From positions 62,001-126,000 of the forward strand of contig NZ_JAJGMW010000007.1 in assembly GCF_020782115.1 (NCBI RefSeq): 64,000 nt of DNA, given 5' to 3'. Source of the stretch: Leeuwenhoekiella parthenopeia. GTDB lineage: Bacteria > Bacteroidota > Bacteroidia > Flavobacteriales > Flavobacteriaceae. Position numbers and translations under genes: made by a program. Of the stretch, positions 54,867 to 64,000 are shown piece by piece; position 1 is the first letter of the stretch; each line of letters opens with the position of its first letter. The notes beneath the pieces are model-generated. The model ran no database searches, was not told the DNA's origin, and was given only the letters and a program-made list of their open reading frames with translations.

Positions 54867-56219
54867 TCAAAGCATATTTTGAACCTCATCAAAATTAAGT
54901 CCGCCATAATTACCGCTACTCATCAGTAGCAACACGCTATTTTCAAATTTTTGATCCACCAGATACGATTTGAAGGCTTCAGCGTTGGTGTAAATAGTCA
55001 AATCATCGCGCTCAAAAGCTTCGGCAATTTGCTCCTTACTTATCGCTTCGAGCTTTTTGATGGCCACCGCATCAGGTGAAAAGAAAACCACCGCCTCATC
55101 GGCAGCATCTAAAGCTCCCTTATAGCCTTTTATAAATTCGGCATTGAGACTGCTGTAGGTATGCAGTTCTAAACAGGCAATGAGTTTACGCCCGGGAAAC
55201 TGCTTTTTAACGGCTTCAGTGGTTGCTTTTACTTTAGAAGGCGAATGTGCAAAGTCTTTAAAGCCGATATTTGATGCGGTCTCTCCTATTTTCTCAAGCC
55301 GTTTTGCCGCACCCTTAAAACTTGCGATGGCTTCGTAAAAATCATCTTCATCTACACCCATATGCTGGCAAATCCATTTGGCTCCTGCCAAATTACTTAA
55401 ATTATGTTTTCCAAAAACAGCAATAGGCATAGGTCCTTCCGGAGTTTCAAGTAATGTCTCCCCATCCTCAATGGAATATTCGGGAGTGGTATAGGCGTGC
55501 TTGCGTGTAGGTGCAGTAGCTGCCTCTGCAATACGTTTTACCTCAGCATCTTCTTCATTATAGACTAAAATGCCACCGTGGGCAATGCTATCTGCAAAAA
55601 TGGAAAACTGCTCCACGTAATTTTCGTAGGTAGGAAAGACATTCACGTGATCCCATGCGATCCCACTTATCAAAGCGATATTAGGCTGGTAAAGGTGAAA
55701 TTTTGGTCTGCGGTCTATGGGCGAAGACAGGTATTCATCTCCTTCCAGCAAGATAAAATCGTTCTCCTGGGTAAGGTGAACCATCGTTTTAAAACCGGGC
55801 AATTGCGCACCTACCATAAAATCAACCTCGCGATCGTGATATTGCAGCACGTGCAAAATCATGGAGGTTATAGTGGTTTTACCATGTGAACCTCCAATGA
55901 CCACGCGGGTCTTTTCTTTAGACTGCTCGTATAAAAACTCAGGGTAACTGTAAATTTTCAGGCCGAGTTCCTGAGCTTTGAGCAACTCGGGATTGTCGGG
56001 TTTGGCGTGCATTCCCAAAATAACGGCATCCAGATTCTCATCTAGTTTTTCAGGAAACCAGCCCAATTCTTCAGGTAATAAGCCAAACTCCTGCAAACGG
56101 GAACGTGAAGGTTCAAAAATAGCATCATCGCTACCGCTGATTTGATATCCTTTATGATGAAGAGCCAGAGCTAAGTTGTGCATGGCACTACCGCCAATCG
56201 CTATAAAATGTACGCGCAT
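54867..56219 (-). CDS. mpl: Mpl-type murein peptide ligase
   Basis: Mur-ligase family protein that, as Mpl, would attach recycled tripeptide (Ala-Glu-Dap) to UDP-MurNAc. The start is set at 56219 (MRVHFIAIGGSAMHNLALAL, 450 residues) because the nucleotide-binding strand begins there; the frame extends six codons further. Landmarks: GGSHGKTTITSMI (ATP loop near 110), LLEGDEYLSS, ISGIAWDHVNVFPTYENY and GKHNLSNLAGA. MurC is the alternative, but the order and the FKDFAHSPSKVKATTEAV segment favour Mpl. Upstream lies a 167-base gap to the TPR gene. Confidence 0.85.
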   Translation of the reverse strand: MRVHFIAIGGSAMHNLALALHHKGYQISGSDDAIFEPSRSRLQEFGLLPEELGWFPEKLDENLDAVILGMHAKPDNPELLKAQELGLKIYSYPEFLYEQSKEKTRVVIGGSHGKTTITSMILHVLQYHDREVDFMVGAQLPGFKTMVHLTQENDFILLEGDEYLSSPIDRRPKFHLYQPNIALISGIAWDHVNVFPTYENYVEQFSIFADSIAHGGILVYNEEDAEVKRIAEAATAPTRKHAYTTPEYSIEDGETLLETPEGPMPIAVFGKHNLSNLAGAKWICQHMGVDEDDFYEAIASFKGAAKRLEKIGETASNIGFKDFAHSPSKVKATTEAVKKQFPGRKLIACLELHTYSSLNAEFIKGYKGALDAADEAVVFFSPDAVAIKKLEAISKEQIAEAFERDDLTIYTNAEAFKSYLVDQKFENSVLLLMSSGNYGGLNFDEVQNML

Positions 56220-56386
56220 TCTTTGAGGAATTTCCAAATGATTAAGTGTAGCGCAAGTTACTAAAAGCGACTCCTAAGTAAAACCGAAGAAACAGAAATA
56301 ATTAAACCTAAAAAGACCCCGCAGGACAAGTATCTCCTATCGCCAATAGATCTAAACCCCTTGCTCAATAAAACAAAAACTGAAAG

Positions 56387-57429: not shown

Positions 57430-60400
57430 ATGTATAAAATAATTACACTCCTTGTCCTTTTCTATTCGTTAAATTTTTGCTGGGGGCAGGATTCGGGTTA
57501 TGACAACTCCTGGAAAACCATACATCTTAATGAAATTGATGGTAAAATTGCGTCAGCCCTTGAGGAAACGCAAACTGTTCTCAAAAAGTCAAAGCGCAAC
57601 AAAGATTATGACACCTACCTCAAGGCGAAAATTTACCGCTGGAAATTTTTACAAATCAATACAGAAAACTCAAACAACCTTATTCTTGCAGAGGTCAATA
57701 AGACCATAAGCGAAATTCCTTTCCCGTACAGTGCCATTTTGGAAACCTATAAAGCTAAATGGCTTAACGATTATTACAAAGAAAACAGGTGGACGATTAG
57801 CCGACGTGGACAAATTAACAATCCCGACCTCAACGATATAGAAACCTGGGATCTCATGACGCTTTTAAAACAGATTCGTAAAACCTATAAATTTGCACTT
57901 AATAATAGCCAAAAACTCATTGAACAACCTTCCGGAAACTATGAGATTTTACTTACTACTGCAAAACTTAACCGCAAATACCGCCCCAGCCTTTATGATA
58001 TTCTGGCTCATGAAAGCCTTGATTTTTATAGAACCGATTTTTACAACCTTACCAGACCCGAACAAACCTATGAGCTTAAAAGCGACAAACTTTTCGATTT
58101 AGGCAATGCGTTTACCGAAATACAATTTAAAACTCCGGATAGCCTATTCTCCAGAGTAGATATACTTAAACAGTATCAAAAACTCGAACGCCTGCACGAA
58201 GAGAATAAAAATGAGGAGGCCTTAGTCTTTACAATTTTAGAAAGACTGGAATATGTCTTTCAGTATCATTTGTCTGAAGAAAAATGGCTCTTATACGAAA
58301 ACACCTTACTCCAATTAGAAAAAGCGCATGAAGGAAGAGAAATTCAAGGTCTGGTTCGCCTAAAACTTGCTGAAAAATACAAAGACCTCGCTAGTACCAA
58401 ACTGGAAGAATACTCAGAAAATTCAGGCTATAGCCAGGAAGAATTTGAGCATCTTAAGAAACTAAACAACGGTAATTGGCTGCTAAAATATCCCGATTAC
58501 AATTCTAAGGCGATTGATCTTTCACAAAAAATAATTGAGAATTTTCCCGAGTCTGCTTACTCTATAAAAGCGGCTCAGCTATTAGAAGATTTACAAAGAC
58601 CCGAGCTCAATTTGAGAACTCAGGAAACCTGGACTCCAGAACAAAAAGGCCGGCTCCTCATTAATTACAAAAACATTGATACGCTAAAGATTCGCATCTA
58701 TAAGGCTACAGCTGCCTTATTGGATGCCCGTGGAAAAACTTTTTTTGAAGATTCAATTCTAAAAAAATTTCTGGAAACCAGCCCATTAGTTGAAGATCGA
58801 ATTTTATTACCAGGGTCTGAAGACGCTAACCAGCACAGTACCGAAACGATCTTGCCTGCTTTTAAAAAAGGACCCTATTTAATATACGCTTCCGCATCAA
58901 ATATTAAAGATAAATTGGGTACCTATAGCTTCTTTAATGTGAGTAGTCTTACAGCAACTCAAACCGAATTTGACAGGTATGAAAGGCTCCAGGTATTCAA
59001 TAAAACAACTGGCTTGCCTGTCAAAAATGCAGAGGTAACTACCTACACAATTCTAAATAACGGCAATTACTCCACTCGAGTAATAGACCAGCTTAACTAC
59101 ACAGATGTACAGGGCGTAACAGATCTTAGAAAACACCCCGGTGAAAGAAGAATAAACAACATAAGCATTAAGACCCCAACCGACTCTACAACGGTTTCTT
59201 ATTATCCCGGCTATTATCAAAGTCTAGAGGATGTTGAAGAAAACACAGACTCCATTGCCCGCACCGTTGTTTATACAGACCGTGCCATTTACAGACCTGG
59301 ACAAAAAGTGTATTTTAAAGGAGTTTTACTTTTAAGGCTTAATGGTAAAACCCAGACAATACCTAATGAATATGTAAGCGTTTATGTGGATAATGCAAAT
59401 GATGAAGAAATTGAAGATATTATTCTAAAAACCAACGAATTTGGGTCGTTCTCAGGAGAATTTATACTTCCTAAAAGTGGACTTACCGGAAATTTTTCGA
59501 TCTATGCGGAGGAAAATTTTGATGAAGACACCTTCTTCTACGATAGTATTGACGAGTTTGACTGGCAAACCACAACTTTTAAAGTTGAAGAATACAAGCG
59601 CCCCACATTTGAGGTAACATTTAATCCTCTGGAAGAAGCATTTAAACCAGGGGATAGCATTCAGGTAACAGGAATAGCCGAGTCTTTTATGGGGGCTAAA
59701 CTTTCTGAAATTCCGGTTAAATATACCATTACAATAACCAAACAGTTCAGTTACTGGCGTTATGGAGGAAATGCGGAATCCACACAAATTGCTAATGACA
59801 CCATTTTCACAGATCAGGACGGTAACTTTAAAATCAATTTTCTCTCAGAGAATTTTGATGATGACGAAGCTATCTACAACTACAAATTTTTCGCAGAAGT
59901 AACCGATCTCAGTGGAGAAACCCGAACCGCTACAACCACAGTTAGAATTGGTAATAAAAATTTAATCGCAAACCTACGCTTACCCCGACAGGTATTAATA
60001 AATGACAGTCTTGCGCTTCATATCGAATCAAAAAACCTAAATGATCAGGAAGTTGCTGCTTCGGGTACAGTACAAATCTTTAAGCTACAGGCACCTGACC
60101 GTATTTTAGGAGATCGGCTTTGGGAAGCCCCTGAAATTCAGACAATCGCTGCCGAAGATTTTAAGAAGGCCTTCCCTACCGAACCTTATTTTGAGGAGCA
60201 AAAAATAGAAAACTGGCCAAAAGGCAAGCTCCTGTTTGAGACTTCGTTTAAAACCAACGGCGTCCTTGAACAAAAATTGCTAACCGATGAAAAATGGCCT
60301 GCCGGAAAATATGTAACTATTTTAAACCTCAAAAGTGAAAACGGAGCCACAGCAGAAACCCGGGAAACCTTTGACCTTACAGACCCCGCTGCCACAAAGC

Positions 60401-63400
60401 TCGCAGACTACAAGGCTTTTGAAGTAAACATTCTGGATAAGGATTTGAACGATTCTAAAAGTATTAAACTTCGTTTAGCAACCGGTTTTGATAGTCTTCC
60501 GGTTTTTGTAAAAGCATTTGACGGGCAGGAAAATTTTTACAGTAAAAAAGTTGAAATTTCCGAGCCTGTACAGCTTACAGTCCCTTGTAAAAATACGCAG
60601 CAAAAGGGAACCTATATTCAAATTTTTGGTATTAAGAACGGCTTACCGGTTTCCTGGCAAACCACAATCACCAGCCCTGTTCAGGAAAAATCACAGTTGC
60701 TTTTTAGTACCAAAACCTTCAGAACTAAAATACAACCGGGTATTGAAGAAACCTGGAGTTTTACGTTAAAAGAAAGCACCGGCAAAACTCCTAATGCCGA
60801 GATTCTGGCTTCCATGTACGATGCTTCCCTTGATGAATTCACGACTTCATCCTGGTCCACCGATGTTGATTTTGATGATTACTATTATGGTGGTTATACG
60901 CGCTTCCCTTCTTTCAATCAGCCTAACATTAATGATCTGAGCTATTTTAGAAATCCATACCGGGGCTACACCAATTACCAGAATTCGGTATTATCAACTT
61001 TTGATGAGTTAAAAACATTTGGTTTCACCTTTGGAAGCCCTAATTCGTATCAATACAGGCGCTATGTAGAGTCAATAGTTGCATCAACGGTCTCAGAACA
61101 GTCCACGCTGCAGGGAAATACTCAAGGTATCGTAACCGATAGCGACGGGCAACCGCTTCCGGGCGTAACTGTTCTTGTAAAAGGAACCCAAAACGGCACA
61201 ACGACCAATTTTGACGGGCAATTTGCATTGGATGCAAAACCCGGCGCAACCCTGGAGTTTAGCTACGTTGGCTTCATAAGTAAGCAGGCAGTCGTAGCCA
61301 AAGACAAAAACCTTTTTATTATGCTTGATGAGGACTCGGCTAGCCTGGAGGAAGTGGTGGTAGTAGGTTATGGTACTCAAACAAAAGCTAGTGCGGTAGG
61401 TTCTGTGATGAATGCAGAAGAAGATATAAGTTTTGTGCTCGCAGGAAAAGTCGCTGGAGTCGAAGTGACTAATGCTTCCGGTACATCTCAGGAAATACGC
61501 ATACGTGGTGTGGCTACTGTTTCAGGTGGGAAAAAACCCTTATACATTGTAGACGGTGTGCCGGTAGAAGACTTTGATATGTCTGCCAGTGAGATTACGA
61601 GTATAGACGTACTTAAAGATGCTGCAGCCACGGCAGTTTACGGTTCTAGAGGAGCAAACGGAGTGATTTTAATCACTACCAAACAAGCTCTAAAAGACCT
61701 TACACAGGTTGAAGCCCGAAAAAATCTGGATGAAACCGCATTTTTCTTTCCACATATTCAAACCGATAAAAATGGAGATTTCTCCTTTTCATTCACAACA
61801 CCCGAAGCACTCACCCGTTGGAAATTACGATTACTGGCACACGATAAAAGCTGGACAACCGGTCAAATGGAACGAACCACTGTTACTCAGAAAGAACTAA
61901 GCATCGTACCTAATGCTCCACGTTTTCTAAGACAGGGAGACACCATTAACCTTACAGCAAAGATTACCAATCTCAGCTCAGGCATTCAGAATGGTATGGC
62001 GACCTTATTCCTCTTTGATGCACTAACCGGGGAGCCTGTCGATGTAAAACTGGCAAATATTAATGCTACGCGCAGCTTTAACCTTATGTCTAAAAAAAGT
62101 GCTGCAGTGGGTTGGACTTTGACCATTCCTCAAGACATTGAGGCTGTGACCTACCGGGTAGTTGCAAAATCAGAATCCTTCTCAGATGGCGAGGAAAACA
62201 TACTTCCGGTGTTAAGCAATCGCACTTTAGTAACCGAGAGCATTCCGCTATTTGTGAGGTCTGGGGAGACTAGGACTTTTGAGTTTGATAATTTAAAGCA
62301 GACCAACTCATCAACATTAACCAATCATAAATTCACTATAGAATACACCTCAAACCCGGCCTGGTATGCCATACATGCCCTCCCCTATCTGATGGAATTT
62401 GAACACGAATGCTCAGAACAAATTTTCTCTAGAATCTATGCCAATAGCCTGGGCTCCCATATTGTTACAAGCGAGCCTAAAATCGCCGATGTGTTCAATT
62501 CCTGGAAGAAAGACAGCGTACTCATAAGTAACCTCGAGAAAAATGAAGAACTTAAAAATTTGATTTTGTCTGAAACACCCTGGGTGCGTGATGCTGCTTC
62601 CGAAACCGAGCGCAAAAACAGAATTGCAAAGCTTTTTGAGGTTGAAAAGTTAAAAACAGCACAAGCTACAGGTTTGGCAAGGCTGAAAAACAACCAGCTG
62701 GGTTCGGGCGCCTTCCCCTGGTTCTCAGGCGGCTCTGCAAGTGAGTTTATAACGCGTCACGTGGTTGCAGGTTTCGGTCACTTGAAAAAACTAGGCGTTA
62801 GTATAGATGACTCAGGCATTGTAAACAGTGGCCTGGAATACCTGGACACTAAGCTCATAAGAGATAAAAATAACTTTAGCTTCAATTCGTTAAAACCCGA
62901 AGACTTTTACAAACAACGCAGTCATCTGCACTATTTATACACGCGCAGTTATTTTCTGGAAGATGCACCTCTTAAAAATGACGTTAGCCTAATTGCTGCA
63001 AAAATTCTTGAATATCGCGAAAAAAACTGGCTGGAGCTATCTGTCTACGAAAAAGGCTTGCTGGCACTTGTGGCCAATCGCATGAACAAAAAAGATTTAG
63101 CCGAAAAAATTCTTACCAGCCTTAAGGAAAGCGCAGTATATTCTGAAACTAATGGTATGTACTGGAAATCCAATAAGCCGGGATGGTACTGGTATCAGGC
63201 GTCAATAGAAACACACGCGCTCATTATTGAAGCTTTTACCGAAATTACTCAGGACACTAAAAGCATTGAAGAACTCAAAGTTTGGTTATTACAAAATAAA
63301 CGTACTAACAGCTGGCCCACAACCAAGTCTACTACTGAAGCTGCCTATGCACTTCTTTTAAGTGGAAACGACTGGCTAGCTGTATCAGATAACACTAAAA

Positions 63401-64000
63401 TTGAATTGGGCGGAAACAGTATTAAAACTAAAAAGCTGCACGAAACGGCTAAAGAAGCCGGTACAGGATATTTGAAACTAAATTGGAATGCTGAAGAAAT
63501 TAGTCCGGATTTCGCCACGATTGAAATTAAAAACAAAAACACATCACCCGGATTTGGAGGGGCCTATTGGCAATACTTTGAAGATTTGGATAACATTAAA
63601 TCTAACTCTGAAAGTCCGTTAAATGTAGAACAGCAATTATACCTTAAGGAAAATGGACCTACCGGATCAACTCTTAAAAAAATCGACAAGAATACTCCCA
63701 TTAAAGTAGGGGATCTTGTAACCGTACGCCTGGTGGTACGTACTACTTCAGATATGGAGTTTATACACTTAAAAGATACGCGCGCCAGTGGTTTTGAACC
63801 TGTAAATGTATTATCCCGGTATAAATATCAGGATAATGCTTCCTATTATGAAAGTACCCGTGACGCTGCTACGCATTTCTTTTTTGACAACTTGCGCAAG
63901 GGAACTTATGTATTGGAATACAACGTTCGTGCAAATAATGCTGGAAATTTCAGTAATGGGATTACCACTATCGAAAGTATGTATGCTCCGGAATTTTCAG
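57430..64000 (+). CDS. Alpha-2-macroglobulin-family protein with inserted SusC-type regulatory/TonB-plug module (3' end beyond window)
   Basis: Open for 2190 codons from ATG 57430 to the right edge; the last residues (MYAPEFS) match the family C-terminus, so only a short tail is missing. Signal peptide at 1-20 (cleavage after WG). A helical N-terminal region of about 400 residues is followed by macroglobulin domains, with MG2 signature DRAIYRPGQKVYFKG at about 618. Residues about 1230-1418 (61117-61683) form a carboxypeptidase-regulatory domain (GIVTDSDGQPLPGVTVL), then EEVVVVGYGTQ and a TonB plug (SGKVAGVEVTNASG to VYGSRGANGVILITTK). Next comes the A2M domain (ARKNLDETAFFFP) and the thioester motif CSEQ (Cys1661-Gln1664). 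There is no outer-membrane barrel. A2Ms trap proteases in the envelope; the role of the plug is unknown. Confidence 0.88.
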   Translation, partial: MYKIITLLVLFYSLNFCWGQDSGYDNSWKTIHLNEIDGKIASALEETQTVLKKSKRNKDYDTYLKAKIYRWKFLQINTENSNNLILAEVNKTISEIPFPYSAILETYKAKWLNDYYKENRWTISRRGQINNPDLNDIETWDLMTLLKQIRKTYKFALNNSQKLIEQPSGNYEILLTTAKLNRKYRPSLYDILAHESLDFYRTDFYNLTRPEQTYELKSDKLFDLGNAFTEIQFKTPDSLFSRVDILKQYQKLERLHEENKNEEALVFTILERLEYVFQYHLSEEKWLLYENTLLQLEKAHEGREIQGLVRLKLAEKYKDLASTKLEEYSENSGYSQEEFEHLKKLNNGNWLLKYPDYNSKAIDLSQKIIENFPESAYSIKAAQLLEDLQRPELNLRTQETWTPEQKGRLLINYKNIDTLKIRIYKATAALLDARGKTFFEDSILKKFLETSPLVEDRILLPGSEDANQHSTETILPAFKKGPYLIYASASNIKDKLGTYSFFNVSSLTATQTEFDRYERLQVFNKTTGLPVKNAEVTTYTILNNGNYSTRVIDQLNYTDVQGVTDLRKHPGERRINNISIKTPTDSTTVSYYPGYYQSLEDVEENTDSIARTVVYTDRAIYRPGQKVYFKGVLLLRLNGKTQTIPNEYVSVYVDNANDEEIEDIILKTNEFGSFSGEFILPKSGLTGNFSIYAEENFDEDTFFYDSIDEFDWQTTTFKVEEYKRPTFEVTFNPLEEAFKPGDSIQVTGIAESFMGAKLSEIPVKYTITITKQFSYWRYGGNAESTQIANDTIFTDQDGNFKINFLSENFDDDEAIYNYKFFAEVTDLSGETRTATTTVRIGNKNLIANLRLPRQVLINDSLALHIESKNLNDQEVAASGTVQIFKLQAPDRILGDRLWEAPEIQTIAAEDFKKAFPTEPYFEEQKIENWPKGKLLFETSFKTNGVLEQKLLTDEKWPAGKYVTILNLKSENGATAETRETFDLTDPAATKLADYKAFEVNILDKDLNDSKSIKLRLATGFDSLPVFVKAFDGQENFYSKKVEISEPVQLTVPCKNTQQKGTYIQIFGIKNGLPVSWQTTITSPVQEKSQLLFSTKTFRTKIQPGIEETWSFTLKESTGKTPNAEILASMYDASLDEFTTSSWSTDVDFDDYYYGGYTRFPSFNQPNINDLSYFRNPYRGYTNYQNSVLSTFDELKTFGFTFGSPNSYQYRRYVESIVASTVSEQSTLQGNTQGIVTDSDGQPLPGVTVLVKGTQNGTTTNFDGQFALDAKPGATLEFSYVGFISKQAVVAKDKNLFIMLDEDSASLEEVVVVGYGTQTKASAVGSVMNAEEDISFVLAGKVAGVEVTNASGTSQEIRIRGVATVSGGKKPLYIVDGVPVEDFDMSASEITSIDVLKDAAATAVYGSRGANGVILITTKQALKDLTQVEARKNLDETAFFFPHIQTDKNGDFSFSFTTPEALTRWKLRLLAHDKSWTTGQMERTTVTQKELSIVPNAPRFLRQGDTINLTAKITNLSSGIQNGMATLFLFDALTGEPVDVKLANINATRSFNLMSKKSAAVGWTLTIPQDIEAVTYRVVAKSESFSDGEENILPVLSNRTLVTESIPLFVRSGETRTFEFDNLKQTNSSTLTNHKFTIEYTSNPAWYAIHALPYLMEFEHECSEQIFSRIYANSLGSHIVTSEPKIADVFNSWKKDSVLISNLEKNEELKNLILSETPWVRDAASETERKNRIAKLFEVEKLKTAQATGLARLKNNQLGSGAFPWFSGGSASEFITRHVVAGFGHLKKLGVSIDDSGIVNSGLEYLDTKLIRDKNNFSFNSLKPEDFYKQRSHLHYLYTRSYFLEDAPLKNDVSLIAAKILEYREKNWLELSVYEKGLLALVANRMNKKDLAEKILTSLKESAVYSETNGMYWKSNKPGWYWYQASIETHALIIEAFTEITQDTKSIEELKVWLLQNKRTNSWPTTKSTTEAAYALLLSGNDWLAVSDNTKIELGGNSIKTKKLHETAKEAGTGYLKLNWNAEEISPDFATIEIKNKNTSPGFGGAYWQYFEDLDNIKSNSESPLNVEQQLYLKENGPTGSTLKKIDKNTPIKVGDLVTVRLVVRTTSDMEFIHLKDTRASGFEPVNVLSRYKYQDNASYYESTRDAATHFFFDNLRKGTYVLEYNVRANNAGNFSNGITTIESMYAPEFS

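Follow-up and report, generated by a model that had tools for sequence, protein, structure and literature searches.

A bacterial alpha-2-macroglobulin whose bait region contains the N-terminal part of a SusC-type transporter

A bacterial alpha-2-macroglobulin (A2M) gene lies at the end of a 64,000-nucleotide stretch of DNA from Leeuwenhoekiella parthenopeia, a member of the Flavobacteriaceae (assembly GCF_020782115.1, contig NZ_JAJGMW010000007.1, positions 62,001 to 126,000 of the forward strand). We call this whole stretch the window, and we give coordinates within it. The reading frame is intact (2202 amino acids, 57430-64038); its stop codon is 38 bases past the end of the window, and we also read the frame in a stretch of the contig fetched beyond the window (L001:1431-8039). 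In its bait segment, the protein has the N-terminal extension (NTE), the TonB box, the plug, and the signature of a SusC/RagA transporter, all present and in the same order as in the transporters. The features are:

57430..64000, + strand: bacterial alpha-2-macroglobulin gene (open reading frame of 2202 amino acids; the stop codon ends at 64038, outside the window)
57430..57486, + strand: signal-peptide-like N-terminus (19 amino acids before Gln, no lipobox seen; read by eye)
59263..59526, + strand: MG2 domain, residues 612-699 (PF01835, E = 6e-19)
60841..61713, + strand: bait segment as cut here, residues 1138-1428 (from the alignment of 78 orthologues)
61123..61362, + strand: SusC-type NTE domain (CarbopepD_reg_2), residues 1232-1311 (PF13715, E = 1e-18)
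61345..61374, + strand: TonB box LEEVVVVGYG, residues 1306-1315 (motif match; overlaps the end of the Pfam match to the NTE)
61420..61665, + strand: TonB plug domain, residues 1331-1412 (PF07715, E = 5e-10, profile positions 23-107)
61591..61683, + strand: SusC/RagA signature, residues 1388-1418 (TIGR04057, E = 5e-17, above cut-off)
61735..61983, + strand: A2M domain, residues 1436-1518 (PF00207, E = 2.5e-16)
62410..62421, + strand: thioester motif CSEQ, residues 1661-1664 (from the sequence)
63622..63993, + strand: bMG10 domain, residues 2065-2188 (PF17973, E = 2e-33)

The MG2, A2M, and bMG10 domains are in one chain and each is above its curated cut-off, as expected for an A2M. The CSEQ at residue 1661 is the CxEQ thioester motif of bacterial A2Ms (73 of the 78 orthologues have CxEQ at this alignment column). 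The stretch that corresponds to the signal-peptide-like N-terminus finishes in AQ in many orthologues. From these N-termini, examined by eye and without a lipobox, we infer that the A2M is probably periplasmic. The bait segment is bounded by the conserved strands LASMYDxSLDxF and RKNLxETAFF, and its first ~90 residues are MG-like and conserved. A preliminary description of the window had placed the module at the bait position, and both Pfam and the alignment of the orthologues confirm this. It had also reported that no barrel follows the plug. Indeed, neither Pfam nor the NCBIfam SusC/RagA model (TIGR04056) gives an outer-membrane barrel after the plug; the A2M domains come next. TIGR04056 matches residues 1232-1433 at 248 bits, which is below its cut-off of 368 because only model positions 4-219 of 981 are matched. 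The N-terminal part of the plug is reduced: the first 22 positions of the plug profile are unmatched, and the protein is ~10 residues shorter before the plug than solved SusCs are.

The likeness of the module to SusC is strong. The bait segment has a Smith-Waterman score of 449 against the N-termini of 28 SusCs from its own genome, while controls (barrel, reversed, shuffled, and another stretch of the A2M) score 54-66 against the same 28 N-termini. In a search of PDB sequences, residues 1226-1428 also align to SusC homologues of solved structure, in their N-terminal parts (best E = 6e-34), and a search of PDB with a profile of the bait region gave no match. The preliminary description had stressed a striking similarity to the SusC that is encoded in the window itself, and this did not hold up. 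That SusC matches the insert at 98 bits, which is among the lowest of the own-genome SusCs listed (the best has 159 bits), so we rejected it as the donor of the insert. Among the matches listed, the best SusC lies in another genome (178 bits). There are also 166 plasmid records that match the insert, all at under 60% identity, and eight of the ten listed are annotated as TonB-dependent receptors.

We used AlphaFold2 to model residues 985-1545 (mean pLDDT of 74, pTM of 0.39). The NTE is firmly predicted, with pLDDT mostly above 90. Values of about 80-90 are seen in the plug's second half, and the strands that follow the bait are mostly above 85. The TonB box is in a stretch with pLDDT under 50, so according to the model it would be in a flexible chain, as expected for a client of TonB. 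The position is right for the bait of an A2M and parts of it have low pLDDT, yet folding is predicted for the NTE and for half of the plug. In a Foldseek search, the NTE matched the crystal structure of the SusCdex NTE (9hfj) with a root-mean-square deviation of 0.8 over 72 columns and 32% identity. The second protein that we modelled, L042, is a relative whose bait is short. Nearly all of residues 199-310 (numbered along the modelled stretch), the TonB box among them, have pLDDT under 50; this is as expected for a bait, given the description of E. coli A2M in PMC4498604.

Among 149 genomes of the Flavobacteriaceae, 148 give some match to the protein and at least 80 carry a long A2M orthologue. 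Our sample of 78 orthologues is from 76 of these genomes (we left out fragments at contig ends from G015, G048, G062, and G147). At the same site, 12 of the 78 have NTE, TonB box, and plug; 14 have the NTE and mostly the TonB box; three have only the plug; and 49 have short baits. (These classes are a regrouping by eye of automatic classes of 10, 12, 5, and 51.) The preliminary description had called for a search for this architecture across Bacteroidota, and we recovered it both in these family orthologues and in named genomes, such as those of Zhouia amylolytica, Tenacibaculum caenipelagi, and Roseivirga pacifica. Two of the 12 family orthologues with the full architecture are in single-contig genomes (G113 and G014). 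An assembly chimera, which the preliminary description had named as grounds for dismissing its reading, or a misjoined frame would not recur at the same site in this way and is almost certainly not the explanation. As a side observation, another genome of the same genus (G144) gives a weak match only (1.8e-49). The long orthologue is seemingly absent from it, and the gene may be patchy within the genus.

In the Smith-Waterman comparison with the 28 SusC N-termini, 34 of the 78 family baits score above the highest control (89), and 31 of these score at least 124. The 47 baits that score under 120 average 59, and control means are 41-48. Searching two sets of 78 baits with Pfam gave NTE matches in 26 and in 3, and Plug matches in 14 and in 1. 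These are the only two families that we judged credible across the 156 baits. The other hits were weak (12 to CooC_C, seven to TTR_TEN1-4, and a few single or double ones), and in L002 the CooC_C and TTR_TEN1-4 hits overlap the NTE.

We measured conservation as the percentage of the score of 45 SusCs from other genomes. In the 12 full inserts, the NTE is at 92-95%, the TonB box at 91%, and the plug core at 81-91%, with 51-68% for what lies between them. In the 14 NTE-type baits, the TonB box is at 84%, and the parts that follow it are lost. In the 49 short baits, the TonB box is the best-kept block, at 35%. The preliminary description made the plug the central element. The plug is present, but the NTE and the TonB box are the best-kept elements, and pieces of the plug are often missing.

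To describe selection, we took the 12 closest pairs among 43 insert-bearing genes and computed the ratio of nonsynonymous to synonymous rates (dN/dS); 11 of the pairs were computable, the pairs share rows, and several have dS above 1. The ratio is 0.14-0.41 for the whole bait segment (including its conserved MG part), 0.16-0.47 for the module part alone, and 0.10-0.16 outside the bait segment; each of the 11 computable pairs has a higher ratio in the bait than in the rest. By these ratios, the bait is changing faster than the rest of the gene, yet it is under purifying selection in the pairs tested. In a Tenacibaculum pair (L354 and L356), dS is 0.22 in the bait and 0.64 elsewhere in the gene, which would fit a recent exchange of the segment.

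Many of the short baits retain pieces of SusC. A TonB-box pattern matches 25 of the 49, where shuffled sequences lead us to expect 0.46. We also built position-specific scoring matrices (PSSMs) from the 28 SusCs of the window's genome and counted a block as passing if at most 1 of 200 shuffles was as good. Of the 51 baits that were automatically classed as plain, the TonB box passes in 24 (versus 0, 0, and 1 for three control stretches from other parts of these proteins), the GRVAG block in 19 (2, 0, and 1 for the controls), and the IRG block in 12 (1, 0, and 0 for the controls). The plug-core blocks pass rarely (DG in none, KD in one, and SR in one). If all 78 family baits are reversed, the TonB box passes in three, GRVAG in one, and IRG in none. 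(The block TDFDGNF was unspecific, with 17 of 51 passing in one control stretch, and was not used alone.) The order of the pieces also matters. GRVAG precedes the TonB box in eight of the 10 short baits that pass both, which is the reverse of the order in SusC; the other two (L038 and L079) have the SusC order. IRG precedes the TonB box in seven of seven. Several short baits have no SusC piece at all. According to the preliminary description, its reading would suffer if relatives without the insert were the norm. They are the norm, as 66 of the 78 lack the full insert, but this does not undo the reading, because so many of the short baits match the TonB-box pattern and because the bait is under purifying selection in the insert-bearing pairs. 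A separate motif (KKALVFNSRxExSGGxI-like) is near SusC pieces and is common to the baits of L036, L057, and L083, and less clearly L085.

The inserts do not seem to have a single origin. On a quick tree of the 78 A2Ms with the bait excluded, 24 changes account for the four bait states (the average for shuffled labels is 25.4, and 42 of 200 shuffles are as low); in this tree, 31 of 75 inner branches have support under 80 and there were long-branch warnings, including for L002. Taken by itself, the label "full" shows slight clustering (8 changes versus 9.6 for shuffled labels, with 30 of 500 as low). We also built a tree of eight of the 12 full inserts with 75 SusC N-termini, leaving out L005, L007, and L009 (under 150 matched residues) and L013 (long branch). 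Forcing the eight inserts into one clade costs 114 log units (approximately unbiased (AU) test, p = 0.003). The insert label needs four changes on this tree, three of them forced by supported branches; with L013 included, it needs six, five of them forced. Some inserts have kin in their own genomes. The insert of L012 pairs with an own-genome SusC with support of 100. The insert of L010 nests inside a set of 14 SusCs with support of 98, and its best search match is an own-genome SusC, nearly tied with the next (191.7 versus 190.9). For L011, an own-genome SusC is the best match (64% identity, 264 bits, with the next best at 197; the genome gives five matches including the insert itself), and this pair has support of 95 in one insert tree and is not marked as supported in the other.

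Given the AU rejection, the supported branches, and the own-genome kin, these sequences indicate that SusC modules were inserted into the baits, or overwritten with sequence from SusC genes, on more than one occasion, probably three or more, and that the inserts of different relatives derive from different SusC lineages. Repeated insertion may also be mimicked by gene conversion, with SusC genes rewriting an old insert. A single ancient insertion followed by decay only was rejected, both by the AU test and by the order of the pieces in the short baits.

Our class-wide sample has 79 baits, two of which (L128 and L130) are from the window's own family. The TonB-box pattern matches 12 of the 79 (0.96 expected), and the TonB-box PSSM passes in nine (seven of the 77 outside the family), compared to three of 79 reversed baits and none of 79 for each flanking stretch. 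The clear cases outside the family are L129, L187, L193, L199, and L204. Another 79 baits with named organisms were ranked by their likeness to a full-insert protein, so their frequencies are meaningless. All or nearly all of the blocks are present in Zhouia (L347), Fulvivirga (L360), Roseivirga (L371), and a Prevotella metagenome-assembled genome (L381), and plug blocks without an NTE are present in Sphingobacterium (L408) and a metagenome-assembled genome of Chitinophagales (L401). Class-wide baits with a TonB-box, GRVAG, or KD block are from genomes that are richer in first-look SusC candidates (medians of 49.5 versus 17.5, Mann-Whitney p = 0.002; for the number of blocks, Spearman p = 0.08). 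This relation between bait content and SusC number is weak, and the first-look candidates are a crude stand-in. RGARxDxTxYxxDGxxV-like pieces in the baits of L131, L141, and L181 presumably recall the plugs of another type of TonB-dependent receptor.

SusC pieces are also present in other envelope proteins. Among 60 family genomes, we detected YfbK-type VWA proteins in 10 (L213/L224 at G000:C15; L218-L227). Nine of the 10 have an NTE-like domain at the N-terminus (by eye, with Pfam run on one), and the tenth locus is truncated ahead of this region. The TonB box after the NTE passes the PSSM in seven of the 10 and plug-core blocks pass in three or four, so these proteins show graded states like those of the A2M baits. 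In M56 (BlaR1-like) peptidases, blocks from the C-terminal half of the plug are in 26 of 30 tails and the TonB box is in one of 30 (L228-L257; G000:C56:22713-24611, outside the window); these 30 loci ranked highest in a search whose query bears the plug tail too. The half-plug seems to be a domain of its own. As SusC N-terminal pieces are in several envelope proteins, bait function is not the reason for them in all cases. Another protein, of 240 amino acids (L212, G000:C18), contains Cys in its N-terminal part and has an NTE at its C-terminus; this NTE finishes in a stretch that resembles a TonB box.

We propose that the window protein is a thioester-type A2M that holds the periplasm-facing N-terminus of a SusC (NTE, TonB box, and plug) in its bait, where TonB would read it. 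This is tentative, and we would put its probability at roughly 0.37. The TonB machine would recognise the TonB box in the bait loop as it does in a transporter, and the NTE could direct the protein to one particular TonB. On entering the periplasm, a protease would cut the bait loop and be trapped by the thioester, as in the E. coli A2M (ECAM). The loosened bait would then present the TonB box to TonB, perhaps only after cleavage, and the inhibitor would thereby be placed at the import machinery and report to it. The idea that TonB could read the bait comes from joining two sets of data. In the SusC Bt1763, the TonB box (VDEVVV / DEVVVTG) is flexible and is required for growth on levan, according to PMC7782687; LEEVVVVGYG is the same motif as given there, and its authors suggest that the NTE chooses among TonBs. 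In ECAM, the bait segment is disordered, and cutting it releases it from its tether and activates the thioester (PMC4498604). Several of our results speak for this reading: the repeated capture of SusC N-termini; the conservation of the TonB box, also in the short baits; its position in chain of low pLDDT in both models; its occurrence after the NTE in YfbK-type proteins; the purifying selection on the bait and the module; and the lack of any credible Pfam family other than NTE and Plug in the 156 baits. Docking to TonB, shielding, acting as a decoy, and delivery are all roles that the module might have.

Several points count against reading by TonB. No TonB-box pattern matches 30 of the 78 family baits or 67 of the 79 class-wide baits, so the TonB box is not essential, and outside the family its signal is weak, near the reversed control, and rests on single clear cases. 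In the M56 peptidases, related SusC pieces are reused without the TonB box. The window's insert is nearest to another genome's SusC and to other inserts, so no own-genome donor is its best match. The TonB box alone does not explain why the NTE and the plug come along. A constantly exposed TonB box would compete with the transporters, and the model must hide the box to avoid this cost. Finally, the own-genome kinship and the fast-changing bait are explained at least as well if the bait is a decoy.

As a decoy, the bait would imitate the N-terminus and plug of SusC so that a protease that clips the transporters cuts the inhibitor instead and is trapped, and TonB binding would be irrelevant. The module sits where A2Ms are cut, and the short bait that we modelled (L042) is predicted to be disordered. 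Both the own-genome SusC kin of some inserts and the higher dN/dS of the bait are what a decoy that tracks its model would show, and short baits keep the TonB box, GRVAG, and IRG pieces instead of the folded core of the plug. However, the YfbK-type proteins and the M56 peptidases are not protease traps, and they carry the same or related pieces; several short baits have no SusC piece to offer; and we know of no protease with such specificity, although none was searched for. We consider the decoy only somewhat less likely than reading by TonB. It is less likely still that the pieces are passengers, copied by recombination or gene conversion from the many conserved SusC genes into a tolerant bait loop, with no function of their own. 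This could account for the fast turnover on the A2M tree, for the own-genome kin, for the class-wide baits with SusC blocks being in genomes with more SusC candidates, and for the bait's dS being one third of the rest in one Tenacibaculum pair. But no other credible family was captured in the 156 baits. The bait and the module are also under purifying selection, and the TonB box outlasts the KD and SR blocks, although these are longer and higher-scoring in SusC. Nor would the decay of one insert place GRVAG before the TonB box in most short baits that have both.

A broader form of reading by TonB is that Bacteroidota couple protease defence to TonB: cutting the bait would trigger the thioester trap and also free a hidden TonB box that competes with transporters, and so throttle or redirect the import gates by which the attacker entered. 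The A2M would then be a bacterial counterpart of complement C3, with a SusC N-terminus in place of the anaphylatoxin and renewed from resident SusC genes. We think that this is quite improbable.

The architecture is real and recurrent: the inhibitor itself belongs to a known class, and the novelty lies in its bait. As the preliminary description stated, the combination is not explained by the textbook role of either family. Like the window protein, ECAM (PDB 5a42, 4rtd, and 4ziq) has MG, A2M, and bMG10 domains and a CxEQ thioester. To our knowledge, the bait of ECAM has no SusC-derived module. ECAM (5a42) was second in Foldseek for the modelled bait region (E = 4e-7), but with a root-mean-square deviation of 24 over several domains. 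Its bait is largely disordered inside an MG domain (PMC4498604). SusC/RagA transporters (Bt1763; PDB 6ytc, 9hfj, and 5t3r) share the NTE, the TonB box, the plug, and the signature, in the same order, and the NTE fold. Unlike them, the window protein has no barrel, its segment is enclosed by A2M domains, and the stretch from TonB box to plug is shortened. Complement C3, C4, and C5 have an anaphylatoxin domain inserted in MG6, and thus also have a foreign domain at the activating cleavage site of an A2M-superfamily protein; in the window protein, the inserted domain is instead the N-terminus of a transporter, and no release by cleavage is known. The YfbK-type VWA proteins and the M56 peptidases resemble it in having SusC N-terminal pieces without a barrel, but they have no A2M fold, thioester, or bait, and the module is N-terminal (YfbK) or C-terminal (M56). 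Among the open-licence PMC matches listed, we found no paper that joins A2Ms with SusC or the plug, which is no proof of absence.

The bait has been drawn several times from one source, the TonB-facing end of the bacterium's own nutrient transporters. If TonB reads the bait, then the A2M would be a client of TonB without being a transporter, and it would connect protease defence in the periplasm directly to import. If the bait is a decoy, then the SusC N-terminus is the thing defended, and the enemy protease becomes findable. Either way, there is a handle on the purpose of the macroglobulins of Bacteroidota. These proteins also call into question the habit of inferring a transporter from a TonB plug domain.

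The preliminary description proposed looking for pbpC past the window; pbpC is the usual partner of ECAM (PMC4498604). By eye, there is no pbpC-like gene within the 11 kb past the window's A2M, and no pbpC-like neighbour of at least 120 amino acids beside the A2M in ten named relatives, so pbpC is not an immediate neighbour in any of these. On the other side of the A2M, a gene for an Mpl/MurC-like ligase (named by eye) is at 54867-56237 on the minus strand, separated from the A2M by one gene of 317 amino acids. An Mpl/MurC-like ligase adjoins the A2M in four of the ten relatives checked (L347, L349, L356, and L383).

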